The position numbers were made by a program, and so were the translations under genes. From positions 1 through 37,039 of the IMG/VR virus record IMGVR_UViG_3300050034_000195: a stretch of DNA of 37,039 nucleotides, one strand, 5' to 3'. Origin of the DNA: a virus. Positions 519 through 37,039 of the stretch are shown piece after piece; position 1 is the first letter of the stretch; each line of letters starts with the position of its first letter. A model generated the notes under the pieces. That model made no database searches and was not told the DNA's origin. It saw only the letters and a list, made by a program, of their open reading frames with translations.

Positions 519-2909
519 TCACGATACCTCAATCGTGATCGTAATCGGGTTCAGCGAAGTCATTGTGGAAGGCATCGTGAAGGGTGTTCCCAGGACGATT
601 GCACCGCTGACAGGTATAGAAGCTGCACCGACCTGAACTTCCCCACCGCGTTGGGTTCCAGTGAGATAGAGAACCCACGGGCCAGTTCCTCCATAGAGGC
701 TGGGATTGCCGTCGGTGTACGGGTTAGCCTGAGTGGTCTGGCCGGCGTCGTATTCAATCAGCGAGCCACCATAATCGACAATGAAATTTGGCCACTGTAC
801 GGTGCCCAACGGTTCGGATGGCGGATTATATCCCGCAGATGGCGTCGTCGCTGTGAAGCTGAACGGAACAATCGTCACGCCCGATGTTCCACCACCGCCT
901 GTCGTTCCGGCATACGGCAGTTGTCCCGGCACAGTCGCAAAGGAAGCATTGGCAACAGGTGACACATCAGTAAAGATCGCAGCACTCCGGTTGAAGGTGC
1001 GCAATATGAGCTGCAGGACGCCCGAGTTTTGGTCGGTTCCCGTATTCATCGCGCCCGAACGGCTCGTGGCCTGAATGAAGCCGCCGCCCGTAGTGTCTTC
1101 CACTTCTTCCTGGATGGGATTGAAAGTCCTCCCCGTAATTTCATAGTCGCCAGCAAACTCGAAGAAAACAGTGGAATCGAGGGTTACGACGTCCCCGACC
1201 ATCTGAGCCTTAAGCGCACGCCAAAGGGTCGGATTTATCTGGCCCACGCTCATGTCCTGGCTCTTATCTACCCATTCCGCCCACAAATTCAGGGTGATCT
1301 GCCACGGTGGGATGTAGGCAGAGCCGAGCAGGTTTAGGTTACCGAATGCCTGGAGCAAAAGGTTTGGATTCAGATAGTCGATGCCCAGGTCTCGATACAC
1401 CTCGTACTGCAGCAATCGCATCGCCTGGTCATAGGTCATGCTGGCAAAGTCGTAATTGACCTTGATCCTTTTCAGACGTGTGCCCGTCACGTTGGGGGGC
1501 AGCACCTGGCCCTCACATATTTGGTGCTGCTGGTGATTGATTTCAGGGTTACGCTGGCTGAACCGGGATTGGATATAGCCGATGCTGCCACCGGTGCTGG
1601 CTGTGCTGGCGGGAATGATTCCTGCATCAATAGTGCAGGTGAACTGTGTAGGTGAAGGCGTCGAAACTCCATACACGCTCGTCGTCGGGATCGTGGTGAC
1701 CATGACATTCAAATTAAACGCCGAATTCTGGACGCCTCCGATGCTTATAAGATCGCCGACTGCGCAGGGATTCGGATTCACCGTGTTCACAGTCAGGATT
1801 GTCCCTGTGGAGTCGACAGAGATCGTCGCGATGGTAGCCACACCCGGAAGTCCTGTTTCAAGAAACTGCCCCTGGTACCTATTCGCGTTCTGATTTACAA
1901 GCGTGTTGTCTATTTCAATGGATCCACCGGCGAGTGCTTCCGCCGTGATCAGGCAGCTTGAAGGTCTCGGCTGATCAATGAAGACATAAATCTGACCAGC
2001 ATACTCGTACCAGTAACCACGGCACGAAAGCAGCACTTGCTCCAGCATGGCTCCCAATGTCGATCCGGCCGCAAAGACATAGCTTCCTTGGAAGCGTGGC
2101 GTCCCAGCGGGATTCTGCGACGTGATATTGATAGCTTGGTCGCAGTAATTGGCTGCCGCCACAATCGAAGGCCAGTTAAACAACGCGCTTTCTTGCGCTG
2201 TCAAGGCATCCGGCCCAAGCACCGGATCGATGCCATATTCCGGCTTGATGGCCCTGCGCAGCCATAAGTCAACAAAGTGCCAGATGGGATTGGTAGTGAA
2301 ACCGTAGCCGGTCTGAGTCCCATAAGGTGGCGGCGTCGAGAATCCAGCGAAAGATGTCTCGCCGTCCGCGTAGAACATGCGGCATCTCATCCCGCGCATA
2401 TCCAGCAGCGGCGACAAGGTTCCACCATCGGTGATCGCCGGAGTCCAGGCTATCGAATAGTAAGATCGTCGCGAAAAGGCAAGTGGAGTGACAAGCGAGC
2501 CTAAATAGCTCCATAGGCCGTCAACCGCGTTGCCGGTTAAGGGAGCATCCGCGCCCGTGTGGAAGTTGAAAGCGCTGAGCGTAGGTGTATTTCCCAGGTT
2601 CTCGATTGCGCTGGAGCTGTTGCTCGGAACAAAGCCCAGCAAGGTATTTCCCATCAATGCCCCGCCGCCGCCCGGAGCAAACGCCATCTGCAAGATGTCG
2701 TTGATCCAAAGTGTGCTGGGCCCATCCAACTCACCCTCTCCGAGATCCCAAAACCCAATCTGCATGGCGGCCGGCTGAAATGCCCCGTCCATCGCCGTGG
2801 GCGCAGGAACGGAATAATCGATCAACTGCATGCCGGTGGCCCGGAAGAACCCGTAGGCAAGCGGCCAAGGCGTGCCGATATTCGCTGTGCAGATGTTTCC
2901 GCCGGGCAT
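519..2909 (-). CDS. Tail tip / host-specificity protein (central tail fibre type)
   Basis: A 796-residue protein, last gene of the leftward tail operon, starting at an ATG overlapping the previous stop (TAATG). Position after a tape measure, a distal-tail-like protein and a gpL-like protein is where siphophages encode their tip/receptor protein (lambda gpJ, GTA tail proteins). The N-terminal third resembles a baseplate-hub scaffold. Around residues 360-450 there is an inserted beta-rich segment. After residue 700 the sequence is Gly/Ser/Thr/Pro-rich and low complexity, consistent with an exposed fibre-like end. No hydrolase motif was seen. Function at the tail tip in adsorption or DNA delivery is inferred mainly from synteny. 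Confidence 0.7.
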   Translation of the reverse strand: MPGGNICTANIGTPWPLAYGFFRATGMQLIDYSVPAPTAMDGAFQPAAMQIGFWDLGEGELDGPSTLWINDILQMAFAPGGGGALMGNTLLGFVPSNSSSAIENLGNTPTLSAFNFHTGADAPLTGNAVDGLWSYLGSLVTPLAFSRRSYYSIAWTPAITDGGTLSPLLDMRGMRCRMFYADGETSFAGFSTPPPYGTQTGYGFTTNPIWHFVDLWLRRAIKPEYGIDPVLGPDALTAQESALFNWPSIVAAANYCDQAINITSQNPAGTPRFQGSYVFAAGSTLGAMLEQVLLSCRGYWYEYAGQIYVFIDQPRPSSCLITAEALAGGSIEIDNTLVNQNANRYQGQFLETGLPGVATIATISVDSTGTILTVNTVNPNPCAVGDLISIGGVQNSAFNLNVMVTTIPTTSVYGVSTPSPTQFTCTIDAGIIPASTASTGGSIGYIQSRFSQRNPEINHQQHQICEGQVLPPNVTGTRLKRIKVNYDFASMTYDQAMRLLQYEVYRDLGIDYLNPNLLLQAFGNLNLLGSAYIPPWQITLNLWAEWVDKSQDMSVGQINPTLWRALKAQMVGDVVTLDSTVFFEFAGDYEITGRTFNPIQEEVEDTTGGGFIQATSRSGAMNTGTDQNSGVLQLILRTFNRSAAIFTDVSPVANASFATVPGQLPYAGTTGGGGTSGVTIVPFSFTATTPSAGYNPPSEPLGTVQWPNFIVDYGGSLIEYDAGQTTQANPYTDGNPSLYGGTGPWVLYLTGTQRGGEVQVGAASIPVSGAIVLGTPFTMPSTMTSLNPITITIEVS

Positions 2910-21273: not shown

Positions 21274-21861
21274 TCAGGGCGTCGCCAGCGCCTGGGCGAC
21301 CGTCAGATTGTCCGGCCGGAACCACATCTCCTTGAACTTTGCCTCGAAGGTTTCAACCGTCACCGCTCCGAGCGTAAAAGTCGCCGAATTGTCCTGGCTC
21401 CGCTCTCCCTGCTCGCTGAAGTTGGCCGAGCCGTCGCGCAGCAAGGTGAAATCCACGCAATAGCTCTTCAGGTGCATCAGAACCTTCGAGTGCTTCACGC
21501 GGATCTCGACGCCCTTCAATCCGATCAGCGCGTGCAACGGGATCCGTGCACAGGTGGCGTCGCCGCGGCACTCGGCCTGCAGCTCGCCCCGGTCCAGGTA
21601 GATTCGGATCGCCACGCCGTGGGCTGCCCGATCCACCAGCGCGTCCACAATCGCCTGGTCCGTCAGGCTGAAGGCCGCTAGGTCCACGGTCTTTTGCGCC
21701 ACGGCGATCTCCACCACGTCCGCCTGCTCCAAGTTCTGATCCGGCGAGTATTCGGTGCTCACCGCGTTCTGCGCGTAGACAAGCTGCTCGCAGCTTGCCA
21801 ATCCCATAGCCAGCCCAAAGACCAGCCCCAATCCCATCCGTCCCCGCATCCGCATCGTCAT
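21274..21861 (-). CDS. Secreted phospholipase D-like nuclease
   Basis: 195 residues from ATG 21861, overlapping the previous stop as ATGA. The N-terminus is a signal peptide (RMRGRMGLGLVFGLAMGLAS, possible lipobox-like ASC). The mature part is one PLD-type unit: EYSPDQNLEQADVVEIA, then AAFSLTDQAIVDALVDRA and GVAIRIYLDRGELQ, then HSKVLMHLK, and GSANFSEQGERSQDNS. The His-x-Lys and G-S-x-N elements of the HKD motif are present; the usual Asp spacing after the Lys is altered. The family includes periplasmic Nuc-type endonucleases. In a late phage operon it may degrade host or incoming DNA outside the membrane (inference). Confidence 0.75.
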   Translation of the reverse strand: MTMRMRGRMGLGLVFGLAMGLASCEQLVYAQNAVSTEYSPDQNLEQADVVEIAVAQKTVDLAAFSLTDQAIVDALVDRAAHGVAIRIYLDRGELQAECRGDATCARIPLHALIGLKGVEIRVKHSKVLMHLKSYCVDFTLLRDGSANFSEQGERSQDNSATFTLGAVTVETFEAKFKEMWFRPDNLTVAQALATP

Positions 21862-22112
21862 AGTGTCGTCACCAGGGCGCGAATCTTGTCCGCGACCAGC
21901 CCTTCTGAAACAAACCACGGCTTTTCCGTGCATTGAATGGAAAGCGTCTGGGCAGCCTCGTCATATATCCAACTCGCCGCAAAGCCGTTACCGCTGGCCG
22001 TGCCCATGTCGCCCGCGACGCTCACATCGGCTTGCGCCCTGATCCGCGCCCGGATCGCCTGGAAGCGCTCCCGCGTGATGTTCTTGAACGTGACTGGCTT
22101 GCAGGCTGCCAT
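21858..22112 (-). CDS. Small conserved hypothetical protein
   Basis: 84 residues (ATG 22112). Reads MAACKPVTFKNITRERFQAI, then AQADVSVAGDMGTASGNGF, AASWIYDEAAQTLSIQC and EKPWFVSEGLVADKIRALV. It looks like a small alpha/beta protein of a type I recall as widespread and uncharacterised in Acidobacteriota ('G-x-x-x-x-G-x-x-x-x-W-x-Y-D ... L-x-I-Q'). It is translationally coupled to the PLD-like nuclease (ATGA), suggesting joint function, possibly as a partner or inhibitor. This is unproven. Confidence 0.65.
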   Translation of the reverse strand: MAACKPVTFKNITRERFQAIRARIRAQADVSVAGDMGTASGNGFAASWIYDEAAQTLSIQCTEKPWFVSEGLVADKIRALVTTL

Positions 22113-23661: not shown

Positions 23662-24114
23662 CTATTCGAAGTCTGAAATACGCGGGTGTACTTGCTTGAA
23701 CGAAAGCGAGCAGACATCCATGGCCTTTTGTTCTAATTCGCCGGCCTTGGTCCAACAGCCGCTCGCTTCCATCCTTTCGTGAGTAGCTCCGGCTTGATGC
23801 AGCGCGCGACAGCCTTCCTCGGAATCAAGGGCTTCCCTCGCATAGGCAGCCGCTTTCAGTTCCTTATCATTATCGGCTAATTGGACAGTGCGGGATGCGG
23901 ATCTCTGCGCCTCAACCCTATCGAGCTGCCACGCAAGCTCTGGGGCACTGACAGCCATCTCCCCAGTTGCGTGGATGGAGCCGATCAGTGCAGCGCGGAA
24001 CTCCTTGCCGCATGTTGAAATCGAGGAGGACTTGGCCATCTTGGCCGTCGGGCGATCTTGAGCTATCGCGCAACTCACCCCTATCATTAACAGCGCCGCA
24101 ATGAACTTTCTCAT
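23662..24114 (-). CDS. Secreted hypothetical protein
   Basis: 150 residues with a clear signal peptide (MRKFIAALLMIGVSCAIAQ, cleavage likely after AIA). The mature part is charged and helical, with four Cys (STCGKEF, EEGCRALH, ASGCWTK, DVCSLSF) that could form two disulphides in the periplasm. It is transcribed away from the repressor side, between the ORF6C-like gene and the late gap. It may be a lysogenic-conversion ('moron') gene expressed in the prophage state. No family was recognised. Confidence 0.6.
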   Translation of the reverse strand: MRKFIAALLMIGVSCAIAQDRPTAKMAKSSSISTCGKEFRAALIGSIHATGEMAVSAPELAWQLDRVEAQRSASRTVQLADNDKELKAAAYAREALDSEEGCRALHQAGATHERMEASGCWTKAGELEQKAMDVCSLSFKQVHPRISDFE

Positions 24115-25623: not shown

Positions 25624-26357
25624 GCAAAAATCCTTCCCGCATGGAGCAGCTGGGCAGCCTGCTGACCGCCATGATCGCTGTAGTTATTAGCGGACAATCC
25701 GATCTGCTCATCAAAAACAGTCGATTTATTCTGCCCAACGCAAATCCTCGCGACTTTAAACCGGGCGGCAAATATTTCGGAATCTGCAAAAGCGTTGCCC
25801 GGAAAACAGGAGTGACTAGGGGCCACGTCAATGATGTCGCGTGGGGGCGATCCGGCTCCCCCCGTGTGCGATCCGCATTTCTTAATGAGATTGAGCTAAT
25901 CGATGCTTTGACGCCCACGAAACCTTTGTCCCCCGCCGAGCGGGAACAAATAACCAGTGGTGAAAAATATAAAGGCATCTATCCTCGCCTCGCTGCAACC
26001 TTAGGCGTTTCCAAATCAACGGTGCGCCGCGTGATCTTAGGGCTGAGGACCGACCAGAGGATAGAACGGCAAATCCTTGCTGCCGTCCGGAAAGAAATGG
26101 CTCGGATCGAGGCTGTCCTTGAAGAGACAGAAATTCCTCGCTTGACCCTCAACGAGAGAGCTTTGTTCAGCAAAAGGGGTAGGTACTGGGGAATCTACCA
26201 GGAGATAGCCAAACACCTGAATTGCTGCGGGGATAATGTCCGGCATCATGCGTTGAGCCCTACATCCACGCGCTCTAACGAAATATTGCGGCTTGTTCGA
26301 GCCGAGATGGCCCGCGTAGATGCCGAGCTTGCGGCAAAGAACGGAGGCAAAGCATGA
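25620..26357 (+). CDS. Triple-module HTH regulator
   Basis: 245 residues from GTG 25620. After an N-terminal helical part (1-45) it carries three copies of the module seen in the preceding gene: 48-94 (GGKYFGICKSVARKTGVTRG...), 114-163 (GEKYKGIYPRLAATLGVSKS...RKEMARI) and 186-233 (RGRYWGIYQEIAKHLNCCGD...RAEMARV). The consensus is 'Y-x-G-I-Y-x-x-x-A-x-x-x-G-V-(S/T)', a recognition helix, then 'R-I-x-x-x-I-x-x-E-M-x-R-I'. The third turn is degenerate (NCCGD). It is likely a DNA-binding protein able to contact several sites, possibly the operators or the transposon ends. It overlaps the transposase gene by ATGA. Confidence 0.65.
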   Translation: MSKNPSRMEQLGSLLTAMIAVVISGQSDLLIKNSRFILPNANPRDFKPGGKYFGICKSVARKTGVTRGHVNDVAWGRSGSPRVRSAFLNEIELIDALTPTKPLSPAEREQITSGEKYKGIYPRLAATLGVSKSTVRRVILGLRTDQRIERQILAAVRKEMARIEAVLEETEIPRLTLNERALFSKRGRYWGIYQEIAKHLNCCGDNVRHHALSPTSTRSNEILRLVRAEMARVDAELAAKNGGKA

Positions 26358-28495
26358 GTGCCGCCCAACTGCAACTCACCGCCTTGACGCCCTCCGGATC
26401 GGGGTGGGTCACCGCCGACCAAGCCATGCAAATCACGGGCTGGTCTCGTACATGGTTCTTCGCGCAAGTGCAGACCGGCCGAGTGATCTCCCGAGAAGGC
26501 GACCAGCGCGCAGCTAATGGCCGGCCGACGCGCCTCTATCTGGCAGCATCTCTGCCGACGCGACATGCACTGGAACTCGTCCGCCCCTCGATCCAGGTCC
26601 CCTTACCGCTTTTCGACGAGGCTCCCAAGATTCCCGAACTGCGCGTCGCGCTACCCGATCCGGCTGCCCAGAAGCTTGCCGAGCAGCGGCTTGCGATCAT
26701 CCGACCGATCCTCGAATACGATGCCGACCCCGAGAAGTGGTCCGCGTGCCAGCTGGCAGACGAATCTTTGGTCAGCTCGAAGACCCAGCTTGTCCGGTAC
26801 ATCGCCGAAATCAGCCAGCCCAGAGTCAGCGAGCGCACCATCTGGGGATGGTACCGCGCCGTCACAAACGGCGGCCCCAAAGCCCTGGCCAAAAAACTGC
26901 GCGCCGACAAGGGACAGAGCCGCTGGTTCAGCCTGCATCCCAAAGCACGCATCCTTGCCGCTTATCTTTACCTCGGCGACATTGACCGCAAGGATCTGCT
27001 GCCGAACGAGAAGCCGCATCGGCCCCAGAGCGTTGCTTTCGTCTGCGAGCAGATCCGCGAGCGCGCTGATAGCCTCGGCATTGCCGCAGGCGATTTGCCC
27101 AGCCGCGAGACGGTGCGCTCTTTCCTTTCGCAGGCGATTTCGCCCGCGATGAAGGTTTTGGCGCGCGAAGGAAAGCGTGAATATCACGAGCGCATGTCTC
27201 CTTTCCTGCGGCGCCGCTACGACGACATTTATGCCAACCAGGTCTGGGTGGGCGATCAGATGTGGCACGACGCCGAAGTCGCGAATGACATCTTTGACGA
27301 TGTGCCGCTCGGTACGCCGCTTCGTCTGCGCTTGGATGCGTTCGAGGACTTCCGCAGCCGCAAGATCGTTGGTGCGACCTGGACTCACTTCGGCAGCTCA
27401 CGCTCGATTGCAGCGACCTTGCGCCGCGCCATTCTCCAGTACGGCCCTCCGGAGATGATCTACGTCGATAACGGCAAGGACTACAAAAAGATTGCCAAGG
27501 GAGCACAGAAAGGCTTCCCGGCCGAGGATCGTCGGGTGCAGGATCTCCGGCCCGAAGACGTTGCCCCCATCGAGCAGACAGGATTTCTGGCGCGGATCGG
27601 CGCCGGCGTCGTGCATTGCATTCCCCGCCACCCACAGTCGAAGGGCGTAGAGCGCTGCTTCGGCACCGTGCATCACTTTGACGCGTTCTTCTCGACCTAC
27701 ACTTCCGGATCCACGGCCACGCGGCCCGAGTCCACGGGAGACGCCATGATGGAGCACCGGCGCCTATTCAAGAAAGGCCGCGTCGCCGAGTCGAAGCACC
27801 CACTGGCGAGCACCTTCATTCTTGCCTGCCTGTCTTGGATCGACAAGTACAACGCCACGCCGCATTCAGGCGAAGGCATGGATGGCCGTAGCCCCAACGA
27901 AGTCTTCGCGGCAGAATTTAACCCCAACCAGAAGCCCACGCCGCCGCCTGAGACGCTGGCGCTTCTGATGGTTGAATACGAACGCCGTCAGGTGCGCGAA
28001 TGTGCCGTGACGCTTAACAAGCGCCGCTATACAGCGCAGTCTGAGGATCGTCTGGCCTGGGCAGCGATGCATGAGGCCAATGAGCGCGAGATCCTCGTCG
28101 TCTACGATCCCGCCGATCCGGAATACGCTGCCGCGCTCGATCTGGACGGTCGGTTCATCGCCTGGCTGGAGGCTGAAGTACTTGTCCGCTTTGCGCCGAA
28201 CGATCCTGCCACACAATCTCAGATCGGTAAATCGATGGAGATCCGCCGTGGCCTGGAAAAAGCCACGAAGACCACGCTGCGCTCAATCGCACGCGCTGCG
28301 CGCTCGGGCGGCGCGCAGTCGGCCGAGGAGATGGCCTACAGCAACATCCAGATTCCGGTTACGACCGCTCCTATCATTTCCCAGCGCGGGCAAGGAAGGC
28401 CCAACAACAACGAACCCACCAACGAACTGATACCGGGCCAGGGCGCGGATCGACTGGCAGAACGACTTCGGAGGAATAGTGTCAACTCTCGCTAA
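26354..28495 (+). CDS. A: Mu-type DDE transposase
   Basis: 713 residues. The N-terminal Mu-type winged helix (about 15-75: GWVTADQAMQITGWSRTWFF ... GRPTRLYLAASLP) binds enhancer/end DNA; a second helical DNA-binding part spans about 105-270. The RNase H-like core has D301 (WVGDQMWHD), D372 (IYVDNGKDY) and E433 (HPQSKGVERCFG), a D-D-60-E spacing close to MuA. A Mu-transposase C-terminal beta-barrel follows (about 515-600: LNKRRYTA, VVYDPADPE). The tail is basic, Asn/Gln-rich, for MuB contact. It integrates the phage and replicates it by transposition. GGAGGC precedes the ATG. Confidence 0.96.
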   Translation: MSAAQLQLTALTPSGSGWVTADQAMQITGWSRTWFFAQVQTGRVISREGDQRAANGRPTRLYLAASLPTRHALELVRPSIQVPLPLFDEAPKIPELRVALPDPAAQKLAEQRLAIIRPILEYDADPEKWSACQLADESLVSSKTQLVRYIAEISQPRVSERTIWGWYRAVTNGGPKALAKKLRADKGQSRWFSLHPKARILAAYLYLGDIDRKDLLPNEKPHRPQSVAFVCEQIRERADSLGIAAGDLPSRETVRSFLSQAISPAMKVLAREGKREYHERMSPFLRRRYDDIYANQVWVGDQMWHDAEVANDIFDDVPLGTPLRLRLDAFEDFRSRKIVGATWTHFGSSRSIAATLRRAILQYGPPEMIYVDNGKDYKKIAKGAQKGFPAEDRRVQDLRPEDVAPIEQTGFLARIGAGVVHCIPRHPQSKGVERCFGTVHHFDAFFSTYTSGSTATRPESTGDAMMEHRRLFKKGRVAESKHPLASTFILACLSWIDKYNATPHSGEGMDGRSPNEVFAAEFNPNQKPTPPPETLALLMVEYERRQVRECAVTLNKRRYTAQSEDRLAWAAMHEANEREILVVYDPADPEYAAALDLDGRFIAWLEAEVLVRFAPNDPATQSQIGKSMEIRRGLEKATKTTLRSIARAARSGGAQSAEEMAYSNIQIPVTTAPIISQRGQGRPNNNEPTNELIPGQGADRLAERLRRNSVNSR

Positions 28496-29504
28496 CAAAA
28501 AAGCTCATCTCCAATCGATGGGATTGCCCAGCGATGCGGAGACCATTCGCCGGACGCGGACCTTCGCGCTCCGCGCCGGCCTTACCCTTGCGGAAATGGC
28601 CGACCTGGCCGCGTTGAACCCCAACTCGCTGCGCGTCTTTTTATCGGGATGTTACGACCGGCATCACGCGGCGGACTCGAACACCCTGGTGATCCGCGCT
28701 GCGCTCAAGCAGGTGATGGATCGCTACGAGATTGAGAACCTGCCGCCAACGACTGGGCCGCACTATGACACGGCCGAATACAGCGCCGTCCGCCACTCGA
28801 TGTGGGCCGCGCTGAAGCAGGGCACCGCGTTCCTGGTCGATGGACCTCCGGGAACGCAGAAGACCTACACCTTCCGCCGCGTGGCCGAGGAGATCAACCA
28901 ATCAAAGGAAGGCCGCGCGGTCTACGTCTACTCGCGCGTCGATCACTCGCCACAGGGGTTTCTGGTGGAAGCCTGCACCGAGGCCGGCATTCCCTGCCGC
29001 GGCAATATCGATCAGTTGCTGCGCAAGTTGAGGTATTTTCTGGCCGGCAAGCGGACGCTGCTGATTGTGGATGAGGCTCAGCACCTGGGCCTCAACGGCC
29101 TGGAGGTTCTGCGCCAGCTCCTCGACACGCCGCCTTACTTCGGCGTGGTGCTGGGCGGTAGTCACGATCTCTCCATGCGGCTGCGGGATTGGCGCATGGA
29201 GCAGTGGCGCAGCCGCTTGCGCCGCACCCATCTGCTCAAAGGGCTCAGCGCTGAAGAGGCCGGCCGGATCCTGACCGCCGAAGTGGGCCAGATGCGCCGG
29301 GACGACATGGCTGCCAGCATCCAGGACGCCACGGTCGAGGCCGTGCGCAACCGCAAGACCTTCCGGTACATCAGCGCCCGCAACCTGTTCTTCTCCATCG
29401 AAGACGCCCGCAACGTTATCTCCGCGGCCGCCTGCGCTCCCGTGGCGCCAGCCACCGAGACGACTCCAATCGCCGAGTGGCAAAGAGAAGAGGCAATTGC
29501 ATGA
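28479..29504 (+). CDS. B: MuB-type transposition ATPase
   Basis: 341 residues from GTG 28479, overlapping the transposase end by 17 bases, with GGAGG just upstream. The N-terminal HTH (about 33-58, LTLAEMADLAALNPNSLRVFLSG) is like MuB. The AAA+ domain has Walker A GPPGTQKT (122-129), Walker B LLIVDEAQ (194-201) and a sensor segment VVLGGSHD (223-230). It forms ATP-dependent filaments on target DNA, stimulates the transposase and gives target immunity. The C-terminus is rich in Ala/Pro/Thr. Orthology is by motif and operon position. Confidence 0.94.
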   Translation: MSTLANKKAHLQSMGLPSDAETIRRTRTFALRAGLTLAEMADLAALNPNSLRVFLSGCYDRHHAADSNTLVIRAALKQVMDRYEIENLPPTTGPHYDTAEYSAVRHSMWAALKQGTAFLVDGPPGTQKTYTFRRVAEEINQSKEGRAVYVYSRVDHSPQGFLVEACTEAGIPCRGNIDQLLRKLRYFLAGKRTLLIVDEAQHLGLNGLEVLRQLLDTPPYFGVVLGGSHDLSMRLRDWRMEQWRSRLRRTHLLKGLSAEEAGRILTAEVGQMRRDDMAASIQDATVEAVRNRKTFRYISARNLFFSIEDARNVISAAACAPVAPATETTPIAEWQREEAIA

Positions 29505-34937: not shown

Positions 34938-35447
34938 ATGCAGATCACGAAACCGCAACTCGCCAGGCTCCAGATCCTCTATGGCCAGCTCGCCCGCCAC
35001 GAGATCGGCGTGGGCGTCTCTCGCAACGCACGGATCGCTTGGGCGTCGGAGCGGCTGCACAGGCCGGTCTCAAGCTTTAGCGACTTGACGGTCGAGGATG
35101 CGGGATGGCTGATCGACCAGCTCCAGCAGCAACTCGGCGTCAAAGCCCCCCTCAAGAGCCGCCCGGACCGTGACCAGGCGCGTCGCGCCGGCCTGGACGG
35201 CCGCAAGGATGGCGCAGAGTTCGCCAACGCTCCGCAGCTGGCCACCTCGGCCGATATTGCGCGCATCCAGAGTCTGCTCGGCCAACTGGGATGGAGCACG
35301 GAGACCTATCACAACTTTCTGGCCTCCGCCCGGTCTCCGCTCCAGCACACCGGCCGGACCATCCGCACCACCACCGACGCCAACAAGGTTTGGTGGGCTC
35401 TCAAGCGCATTGCCCAACAGAAGGGGATCTGGAGGAAGTCAGCGTGA
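34938..35447 (+). CDS. gemA: GemA-like protein (Mu gp16, DUF1018)
   Basis: 169 residues. The pattern fits DUF1018: LARLQILYGQLARHEIGVG, ARIAWASERLHRPVSSFSDLTVEDAGWLIDQL, then a second repeat-like half (DIARIQSLLGQLGWSTETYHNFLASAR ... NKVWWALKRIAQQKG). In Mu, GemA (gp16) modulates host gene expression and DNA supercoiling and is encoded just before mor. ATG 34938 lies three bases after the zinc-finger gene. Confidence 0.78.
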   Translation: MQITKPQLARLQILYGQLARHEIGVGVSRNARIAWASERLHRPVSSFSDLTVEDAGWLIDQLQQQLGVKAPLKSRPDRDQARRAGLDGRKDGAEFANAPQLATSADIARIQSLLGQLGWSTETYHNFLASARSPLQHTGRTIRTTTDANKVWWALKRIAQQKGIWRKSA

Positions 35448-35977
35448 TGCATTTCAACGCAGATCAGTTGATTCTCCCCTTCGCCGAGAAGGAGTATGTA
35501 AACGTGGGGCGCACTGCGCGGATCCTCGGCGTTGGCATCACCACCGTCTATCGGCTCGCCAGGCTGCAGGACAAGACCGGCCACACTTTGCTTACGCTGG
35601 TCGAGTATCGTCCCCAGGCGCGCAAGCGCATCCTCTACTCGTCGATCGTGCGCTTCTGCGATAGCTTGCGCGCGCGCTTTGGCATCGAAGACCGCAGGCC
35701 CAAGCTCGATCACCCGATGTTCCGGCATCGTGACGAGGATCTGCTCCCATTCCCGCTGAGCGACACGATCGGCAGCATTGAAGCGCTGAGCGCGTTGGGA
35801 TACGAAGACATTCGCCCACTTGTCTGCCTCATTGAAGAGGGGCGCTTTGACGCCTACCAGTTCCTCCGTGAATCCCCCTGGAGGATCTCGCGCAGTTCCT
35901 TCAAGACGTTCCTGGCCGCCACACGCGACCGCGAAGTCGCCACAAAGCGCAATTTCACCACCACGAGCCATCCATAA
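35447..35977 (+). CDS. HTH DNA-binding protein in Mor position
   Basis: 176 residues from ATG 35447 (a GTG one codon earlier is possible), overlapping the gemA stop by one base. It appears to have two MerR/excisionase-like helix-turn-helix halves: EYVNVGRTARILGVGITTVYRLAR (about 15-38) and LVCLIEEGRFDAYQFLRESPWRISRSSFKTFL (about 123-155). In Mu the activator Mor follows gp16, so this is a candidate middle/late activator, although it is not a Mor homologue by sequence. It would then act on the leftward late operon. Confidence 0.6.
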   Translation: MHFNADQLILPFAEKEYVNVGRTARILGVGITTVYRLARLQDKTGHTLLTLVEYRPQARKRILYSSIVRFCDSLRARFGIEDRRPKLDHPMFRHRDEDLLPFPLSDTIGSIEALSALGYEDIRPLVCLIEEGRFDAYQFLRESPWRISRSSFKTFLAATRDREVATKRNFTTTSHP

Positions 35978-36002
35978 GCCTCGCGCGCGTGAAGATTTCT
36001 TC

Positions 36003-36395
36003 ATGGCACTTATCTCTATCGCCTCGATTTCTATACCTAATTGGGATCTGACCTCTGACGTCGAGCTACGCGTCTATCCGCTTCAGAGCTTCATCGCCGC
36101 AGACGGCTCGATGATCGCTGCCGGCATCCCCAGCGAAGATTCCTCACAAAACGACAACTTCTTCCAGAGGGTGCCCTGCACGCTGACAGGAACCACGCTG
36201 GCGATTGCCGCGTGCGCCCTCGAATCCACCACAGACTCGCAGGACAATCCCAGCGCGCAGTACGGAGCCTACTTCTTCACTTCGGAAGGGCAGCGCCTTG
36301 GAACCTTTGCCGAGTTCGCGACCTTCTCGCTGCCACCGGCACCGACCAGCACCACCTGGAACGCCATCGCCATCGCACAAAAGGGAGCACTATGA
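36003..36395 (+). CDS. Tail-fibre-associated protein
   Basis: 130 residues, ATG 36003, 25 bases after the previous stop with only a weak SD. All-beta: ISIASISIPNWDLTSDVELRVYPL, then FFQRVPCTLTGTTLAIAACALESTTDSQ and QYGAYFFTSEGQRLGTFAEFATFSLP, ending TTWNAIAIAQ. This pattern is familiar from fibre-associated proteins in prophages, with an Ig-like fold likely. It is coupled by ATGA to the next fibre gene. Confidence 0.55.
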   Translation: MALISIASISIPNWDLTSDVELRVYPLQSFIAADGSMIAAGIPSEDSSQNDNFFQRVPCTLTGTTLAIAACALESTTDSQDNPSAQYGAYFFTSEGQRLGTFAEFATFSLPPAPTSTTWNAIAIAQKGAL

Positions 36396-37039
36396 AGCGC
36401 CTGTTGATTGCAGTACTGCTGTTTTGCAGCGCATCTATCTATGCGCAGAACACTGTTGTCACGGCCACCAATTTTGTGGATGGTGGCGCCAACAAGATAC
36501 AGTCCGGCAGAATCACCATGCTGCCGACCGATATCAATGGCAACCCAATCAACGCCTCGCTGGGCACATCTGCCGGGCTCATGCTGCCGCGCGCGGCCGT
36601 TTGCCTCATCGCGAACGGCGCGATCACCACGACGCCCACAGGCGGCGTCTGCACGGTGCTGGACACTTCGCTTACTAACTCCTCCCACTTCTGCTATAGG
36701 ACGACAGTGATCGACACGGTCACGCAATGGACAGCGCCCGTCATGGCGTGCGTGCAGCCGACAGGATCGACCTGGACCTTTGATACCTATGTTCCGCCAG
36801 CAGCTCCTACGGCCCAGGTAGTTGTAGGCCCGACAGGTGCGGCAGGACCTGCATGCTCCACCGGCACCGGCACATGCAACATGACCGTGCCAATCGTACT
36901 TCCGGCGAATCCAACGACCGCCTTGCAAGCTGCCACAAAGCAATATGTGGACTCCGCAACAGCGCCTCTGCTCCCCGCAAATGGCGTGACAACTACGCCT
37001 GGAGGCGGTCTTCAAGCAAGCACCGTCGTGGCTGGCGCT
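36392..37039 (+). CDS. Tail fibre protein with signal peptide, 5' part
   Basis: 216 codons visible; the frame is open at the window end, so the C-terminus is missing. It starts at ATG 36392 overlapping the previous stop (ATGA). The N-terminus is a signal peptide (MKRLLIAVLLFCSASIYAQ). A beta-rich head follows (GGANKIQSGRITMLPTDING), then a short collagen-like element (VVGPTGAAGPA) and LPANPTTALQAATKQYVDSA, the recurring fibre motif 'A-x-x-K-x-Y-V-D'. It is unusual for a phage fibre to carry a Sec signal; a secreted adhesin built from fibre modules is the alternative. Confidence 0.65.
   Translation, partial: MKRLLIAVLLFCSASIYAQNTVVTATNFVDGGANKIQSGRITMLPTDINGNPINASLGTSAGLMLPRAAVCLIANGAITTTPTGGVCTVLDTSLTNSSHFCYRTTVIDTVTQWTAPVMACVQPTGSTWTFDTYVPPAAPTAQVVVGPTGAAGPACSTGTGTCNMTVPIVLPANPTTALQAATKQYVDSATAPLLPANGVTTTPGGGLQASTVVAGA

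Follow-up and report, generated by a model that had tools for sequence, protein, structure and literature searches.

Tailed-phage virions are taken to assemble in the cytoplasm. Llp of phage T5 and Cor of phage N15 are small exported lipoproteins of superinfection exclusion which block the phage's own receptor; the family described here, represented by a gene that we call gene 2, differs from them by the large size of its proteins and by a fibre-like attachment domain. Lambda Lom is reported to be an outer membrane protein with a signal peptide, whose gene lies between those of the tail spike and the tail fibre and is expressed during lysogeny (PMC12309495). On this account Lom is similar to the gene 2 family in being phage-encoded and having a signal peptide, but it is an outer membrane beta-barrel, whereas the gene 2 family combines a fibre-like attachment domain with a long distal part and, unlike Lom, has homologues without signal peptides in tail operons. 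In the Mu-like phage KS10, the fibre-type genes gp47 and gp48 are located at the right end of the genome, which is reported to be the tail module (PMC2628397), while in our phage the fibre comes after the early operon, with the late genes running on the opposite strand. The closest structural counterparts come from cyanophage A-1(L), where the short fibre is reported to have a beta-ring domain (residues 2–110) on the baseplate and gp82N (residues 1–125) to be on the neck (PMC10966104); judging from its length, chain b of 8KEC is presumably this short fibre. The A-1(L) tail fibre (8KEC) and neck fibre gp82N (8KEG) have an N-terminal attachment domain with a fold like those predicted for gene 1 and gene 2 of our phage. 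The solved A-1(L) chains start with this domain at residue 1, whereas in gene 2 the domain follows a signal peptide and has paired cysteines. A literature search, with most subscription papers outside its reach, turned up no earlier case of a tailed phage that exports a fibre through Sec.

The stretch of DNA analysed (the window) comprises all 37,039 bases of a linear virus record. Its carrier is a Mu-like transposable phage, with MuA- and MuB-like genes and with relatives that have different host flanks; in two relatives the phage end adjoins a different host-type gene, ribD in one and a GHMP kinase gene in the other. The late genes (terminase, portal, head protease, major head protein and neck protein) occupy the minus strand at 0.5–19 kb, which is why the earlier note was right to place the tail cluster more than 10 kb from the genes of interest; the tape measure gene of the window was assigned by eye. 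The same note had described two coupled genes closing the early operon, the second with a Sec signal peptide, and both points are borne out by the sequence and by a rule-based signal peptide call: the two genes overlap by ATGA, and gene 2 starts at 36392. The pair was also said to run with the early operon. Adjacency supports this, since the HTH gene ends at 35977, 25 bases upstream of gene 1, and the transcriptional side of the statement is drawn from this adjacency. In agreement with the note, a simple scan of 35000–37039 showed nothing promoter-like and a single terminator-like site, which is on the opposite strand. Neither gene gave a match of useful score in Pfam or PHROGs.

Table 1. Features of the window (37,039 bases) bearing on the fibre-like genes
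Feature	Position	Strand	Basis or remark
J-like tail tip gene, other end of record	519–2909	-	phrog_5616 3e-10, phrog_31 1.6e-09
MuA-like transposase gene, near early-operon start	26354–28495	+	phrog_310 3.8e-75; PF09299
MuB-like gene	28479–29504	+	phrog_296
GemA-like gene, early operon of Mu-like phage	34938–35447	+	weak, sub-threshold match to Pfam GemA (E 0.0058)
HTH-segment gene, last early gene before the pair	35447–35977	+	PF12728 HTH_17, 4.8e-06 (scanned as 35450–35977)
Gene 1, 130 aa, no signal peptide	36003–36395	+	predicted stand-alone domain with fibre attachment domain fold
Shine–Dalgarno sequence of gene 2, GGGAG, positioned for the signal peptide start	36383–36387	+	sequence
Gene 2, signal-peptide-bearing fibre-like protein, open at window end	36392–37039	+	216 aa in window
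Predicted Sec signal peptide of gene 2, 18 aa, predicted cleavage A^Q	36392–36445	+	rule-based call; signal peptides recur in diverged relatives
Predicted N-terminal domain of gene 2, two cysteine pairs	36449–36787	+	AF2, VIA, cysteine co-occurrence
Short collagen-like stretch and ATKQYVDS fibre motif	36827–36955	+	sequence

The N-terminus of gene 2, MKRLLIAVLLFCSASIYA^QNT, has the positive, hydrophobic and AxA-type parts of a signal peptide and passes our caller, a home-made rule (not SignalP) that also passes 95 of 590 ORFs of at least 200 aa picked from the loci; no lipobox was seen by eye at the cleavage site. In the local collection, 143 raw ORF matches reduce to 64 distinct rows, and signal peptides repeatedly precede the domain in diverged members: 42 rows have one by the rule (including L249, a fragment of 127 aa), 11 are partial and 11 remain without a call, three of which have an evident signal peptide by eye, missed by the rule. 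The members without a signal peptide begin at the domain itself (e.g., MGYTTVS, MAAGYTSVS). The signal peptide looks functional. An internal start behind it, which the earlier note had considered, is unlikely: some start codon lies near the cleavage site in 29 of the 44 signal-bearing genes, but one with at least four Shine–Dalgarno bases in only 1 of 44, against 25 of 44 at the signal peptide start. That signal peptides are general in phage fibres is ruled out by the fibres of other IMG/VR records sharing the ATKQYVDS motif, where none of 78 5'-complete genes has one (the best 80 of 139 loci, two with open 5' ends being left out).

The cysteines follow the signal peptide. Their number is even in 37 of 39 complete signal-bearing proteins (35 of 37 by the rule only) and, once the set is thinned at 60% domain identity, in 28 of 30, compared with 196 of 338 control ORFs having at least two cysteines and no signal peptide (Fisher 8e-7) and with 32 of 46 other signal-bearing ORFs (Fisher 0.0025); these parity counts cover complete ORFs with a mature part of at least 180 aa and a full domain, without the duplicate L211. 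Members without a signal peptide have even counts in five of seven complete proteins, a small sample, and contain 0.94 cysteines per 100 residues versus 1.74 in the signal-bearing ones. Fibres of other viruses without signal peptides also lean to even numbers (47 of 70, 18 of these with no cysteine at all; 29 of 42 among those with at least two). Four pairs of alignment columns, picked on the very alignment that they describe, hold 52 paired and two unpaired cells in 31 signal-bearing domains, both unpaired ones in L206, while shuffling gave a mean of 54 unpaired cells and a minimum of 38; the same columns in six domains of signal-less members hold no paired and four unpaired cells. Co-occurrence assigns the pairs Cys71/87 and Cys101/120 to gene 2. 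Genomes that carry members have the means to oxidise cysteines: VKOR is present in 17 of 18 and a Thioredoxin_4 protein in 18 of 18 of them (3 of 14 and 9 of 14 control genomes, respectively). Export and disulfide formation of the signal-bearing members are, on these features, very strongly indicated.

The fibre nature of gene 2 was approached through its fold. An AF2 model of its domain, built with 36 sequences, has a pLDDT of mostly 92–97 over residues 20–130, with two stretches near 80, and its best VIA match is the A-1(L) tail fibre 8kec_b (residues 1–100, Z 8.8, rmsd 2.5 over 91 residues). Further phage matches are the A-1(L) neck fibre 8keg_a (6.9), the Bxb1 tail tip 9d93_Ka (6.1) and the XM1 neck 7kjk_A3 (5.7); two non-phage chains, an A. 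fulgidus lipase and SleC, reach 7.0. Gene 1, modelled from seven sequences at pLDDT 77, gave Z 9.3 to residues 1–107 of 8kec_b, 8.4 to the Ur-lambda tail tip chain 9e7m_Ta and 7.3 to 7kjk_A3. Foldseek found no match at or below 1e-3 in PDB and BFVD for the gene 2 domain (best BFVD 1.1e-3), and likewise none for gene 1. No virion-attachment domain matches the gene 2 domain at the sequence level; the likeness is that of a predicted fold, and by this modelling gene 2 has a predicted N-terminal virion-attachment domain. The two domains did not match each other by profile comparison either; the models liken them only by predicted fold. Among the loci examined, gene 1 is intact in seven phages, each with a MuA-like gene.

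The C-terminal domains, in turn, are common in patches across the family, irrespective of the signal peptide. Signal-less L163 and signal-bearing L204 have 32% identity over 240 aa (9e-21), L268 from an early end and L204 from behind J 61% over 584 aa, L200 and L208 38% over 475 aa, and L082 and L199 29% over 259 aa; partial rows, L249 and L211 are omitted here and in the tree below. The distal part thus appears from sequence to be variable and exchangeable, as in tail fibres and tailspikes. Pfam matched an SGNH/GDSL esterase in signal-bearing L204 and, with scores under its cut-off, in signal-bearing L268 and L198, and it matched CBM_5_12 in some members; five of the ten C-termini scanned gave no Pfam family, and L087 has a pectate-lyase-like sequence by eye, without a Pfam match. 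Descent of the signal-bearing members from tail fibres, and an architecture of that kind, are very probable.

The domain model matches 35 of 398 genomes sampled from one family of Acidobacteria, and a wider model matches 40 of 397 sampled from the order and 6 of 396 sampled from the phylum. These samples overlap: all six phylum genomes recur among those of the order, so that the domain seems restricted to one order, presumably Terriglobales. In 50,697 phage records, tblastn with both the signal-bearing and the signal-less forms gave no match at E 0.01. Forty-four signal-bearing rows were placed relative to marker genes (sequences chosen by eye from the loci; L248, L249, L264 and L275 are omitted): seven adjoin the tape measure gene, 16 follow J, three adjoin head genes, 13 are at a Mu-like early end and five have no marker nearby. 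All markers that occur within 9 kb of a signal-bearing row share its strand. Thus 26 of the 44 are situated among late tail or head genes, whereas the gene of the window ends an early operon. PHROGs backs the markers for J and the distal tail in L198, L202, L204 and L208, with a distal tail protein as neighbour in L202 and the phrog_2048 tail protein together with J in L198 and L202; the tape measure is backed weakly (1.9e-4 in L198; phrog_30701 in common in L202).

Members without signal peptides occupy the same places. The order tape measure, member, distal tail protein occurs with the signal peptide in L196, L198, L206, L263 and L276 and without it in L201, L202 and L203; signal-less members also lie behind J (L208, the near copies L211/L212, and L262) and, in L200, at the early end of a Mu-like prophage. 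In a tree of 50 rows, seven of them signal-less (matches with E above 1e-8 omitted; L262 forms a long branch), the signal peptide state changes three times, and at least two changes are forced by well-supported branches. The place behind the early operon, which the earlier note had thought peculiar, is real, but it is not specific to the exported form: since the signal-less L200 has the same position, the early-operon puzzle is not tied to export, and this position is ruled out as the cause of the signal peptide.

Signal peptide, domain, even and paired cysteines, and loci and C-termini common with signal-less members are read directly from the sequences; from them we infer that the cell exports the protein, that it contains disulfides, that it attaches to the virion and at what stage, that gene 1 acts as an adaptor and that the protein has a receptor role. 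We suppose, with a probability of about 0.6, that gene 2 encodes a tail fibre or tailspike as a secreted precursor, which leaves the cytoplasm through Sec, is oxidised in the periplasm and becomes part of the virion at lysis. The host Sec system would export the protein and signal peptidase would cut it before Gln19, so that the mature form would begin with the virion-attachment domain, followed by the variable distal part. Folding and disulfide formation would take place in the periplasm. When lysis proteins open the inner membrane, the fibres would meet the virions and dock to their tails; this docking after export we consider rather probable. The distal part would then bind or cleave envelope sugars of the next host, and the gene 1 protein, which lacks a signal peptide, may be a cytoplasmic adaptor already present on the virion. 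In a wider form, we slightly favour the view that tailed phages of Acidobacteria have Sec-exported, oxidised fibres added at lysis, and that cytoplasmic and exported states have switched at least twice, with signal peptide and disulfides changing together.

A signal peptide would also be expected of a decoy, an adhesin or a conversion protein. Of the options offered in the earlier note, assembly into the virion after export fits better, because the mature protein starts with an attachment-like domain and because signal-less homologues are found at the same tail-operon places and have C-terminal domains in common with it; a secreted adhesin or decoy fits less well. The main rival, possible though rather unlikely, is a former fibre turned into a receptor blocker or lysogenic-conversion protein, which masks or modifies the host surface polysaccharide, excludes phages and stays off virions. 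The prophage right end is a usual site for accessory genes; in two Mu-like prophages no further phage gene stands between the fibre-like gene and a host-type gene, and the fibre-like gene precedes conserved right-end words. Such a blocker agrees also with the signal peptide, the early-operon position, the esterase matches and the arrays of three or four signal-peptide genes (L149, L196, L205, L209), which exceed the need of one fibre and count against the fibre reading. Lom, as it is reported, provides a precedent (PMC12309495). Retention of the attachment domain in the signal-bearing members is not expected of a blocker, nor is the position of 26 of 44 rows among late tail or head genes, and the signal-less members at the same loci, with the same C-terminal domains, would be ordinary fibres.

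It is very improbable that the hydrophobic N-terminus is a buried or membrane-touching anchor and that the virion protein to which it belongs is never exported but folds inside the cytoplasm. Other tailed-phage fibres are made in the cytoplasm, and the signal-less state at the same loci agrees with such an anchor, but the even, paired cysteines track the signal peptide, and the hydrophobic stretch is dispensable, since the signal-less members begin at the domain itself. The SGNH/GDSL and CBM_5_12 matches, and the pectate-lyase-like sequence of L087, may point to a free secreted depolymerase that clears matrix or capsule around lysing cells and stays off virions; we hold this for very improbable, as half of the C-termini scanned have no Pfam family and the attachment domain would serve no purpose in such an enzyme.

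A fibre family in which the export signal and cysteine pairs vary together at one kind of locus represents a natural experiment on the rule of cytoplasmic assembly. If fibres join virions after export, the Caudoviricetes would possess a separate, envelope-located step of virion assembly, phages that lyse one and the same cell could share host range proteins, and fibres could fold with the help of the oxidative machinery of the host. If the proteins stay outside, fibres would have given rise to a large family of exported receptor blockers.

The part of gene 2 beyond the window end, which the earlier note had wished to see, is available in a related phage, L082, where the complete gene (L082:10357–13677) encodes 1106 aa and has 98.1% nucleotide identity to the window over the first 648 bases. 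DNA identity climbs towards the fibre (GemA 79%, HTH 87%, gene 1 90%, gene 2 start 98%) and is 83–91% in the late genes, while the transposase (L082:663–2696) has 42% protein identity to that of the window. The two phages are thus a mosaic, close in late genes and fibre and distant in transposase. Behind the L082 fibre gene lies a 336-aa gene (L082:13794–14804, plus strand) matching phrog_3243 at 3.5e-51.

Transposase relatives number 17 in viral contigs and 40 loci in genome contigs, the closest six of the latter being in Acidobacteriaceae MAGs. Where the sequence continues, several have a signal-bearing fibre-like gene at the same position, and a homologue of the GemA-like gene sits upstream of early-end members on the same strand. 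The early-end fibre-like gene is not universal among these Mu-like relatives: L109 and L112 have no such gene behind GemA, and of five genomes holding transposase relatives the domain was matched in one and not in four. In two Mu-like prophages, a host-type gene (RibD, GHMP kinase) follows within about 0.55 kb of the array of signal-peptide genes. Behind the last phage gene, right-end segments of three loci (L191:4086–4640, L183:8181–8660 and that of the signal-less member, L200:6042–6700, reverse) contain the short conserved words TGTGGAAAAGC and TCCCACCAGTG, and two of them contain GTCAATCCCGC; these words are possibly the transposase-bound end of the prophages. Comparison of the left end of G067 with the right ends gave only short, chance-like words. 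Since a host-type gene follows and the right-end words are conserved, the fibre-like genes are probably the last before the prophage end.

Some observations concern neighbouring genes. At the Mu-like early end of L149 (9902–16415), four signal-bearing genes stand in tandem, two of which have the fibre domain, and L193:864–4401, a second place in a Mu-like record (G015), has three tandem signal-bearing genes on the strand of, and ahead of, putative late genes. Similar-looking genes of 277–279 aa without a Pfam match lie directly behind the signal-less members of the Mu-like prophage L200 (6679–7512, minus strand) and of another prophage, L208 (11800–12639, plus strand). In another prophage-like region of genome G018, which also holds a Mu-like relative, a signal-bearing member (L184:11169–12095, minus strand) is located between head–tail-connector-like and tail-tube-like genes. 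In the window itself, two small late-strand ORFs with signal-peptide-like starts (21274–21933 and 23662–24114, both minus strand) are possible lysis genes, and the former reads LASC, resembling a lipobox.
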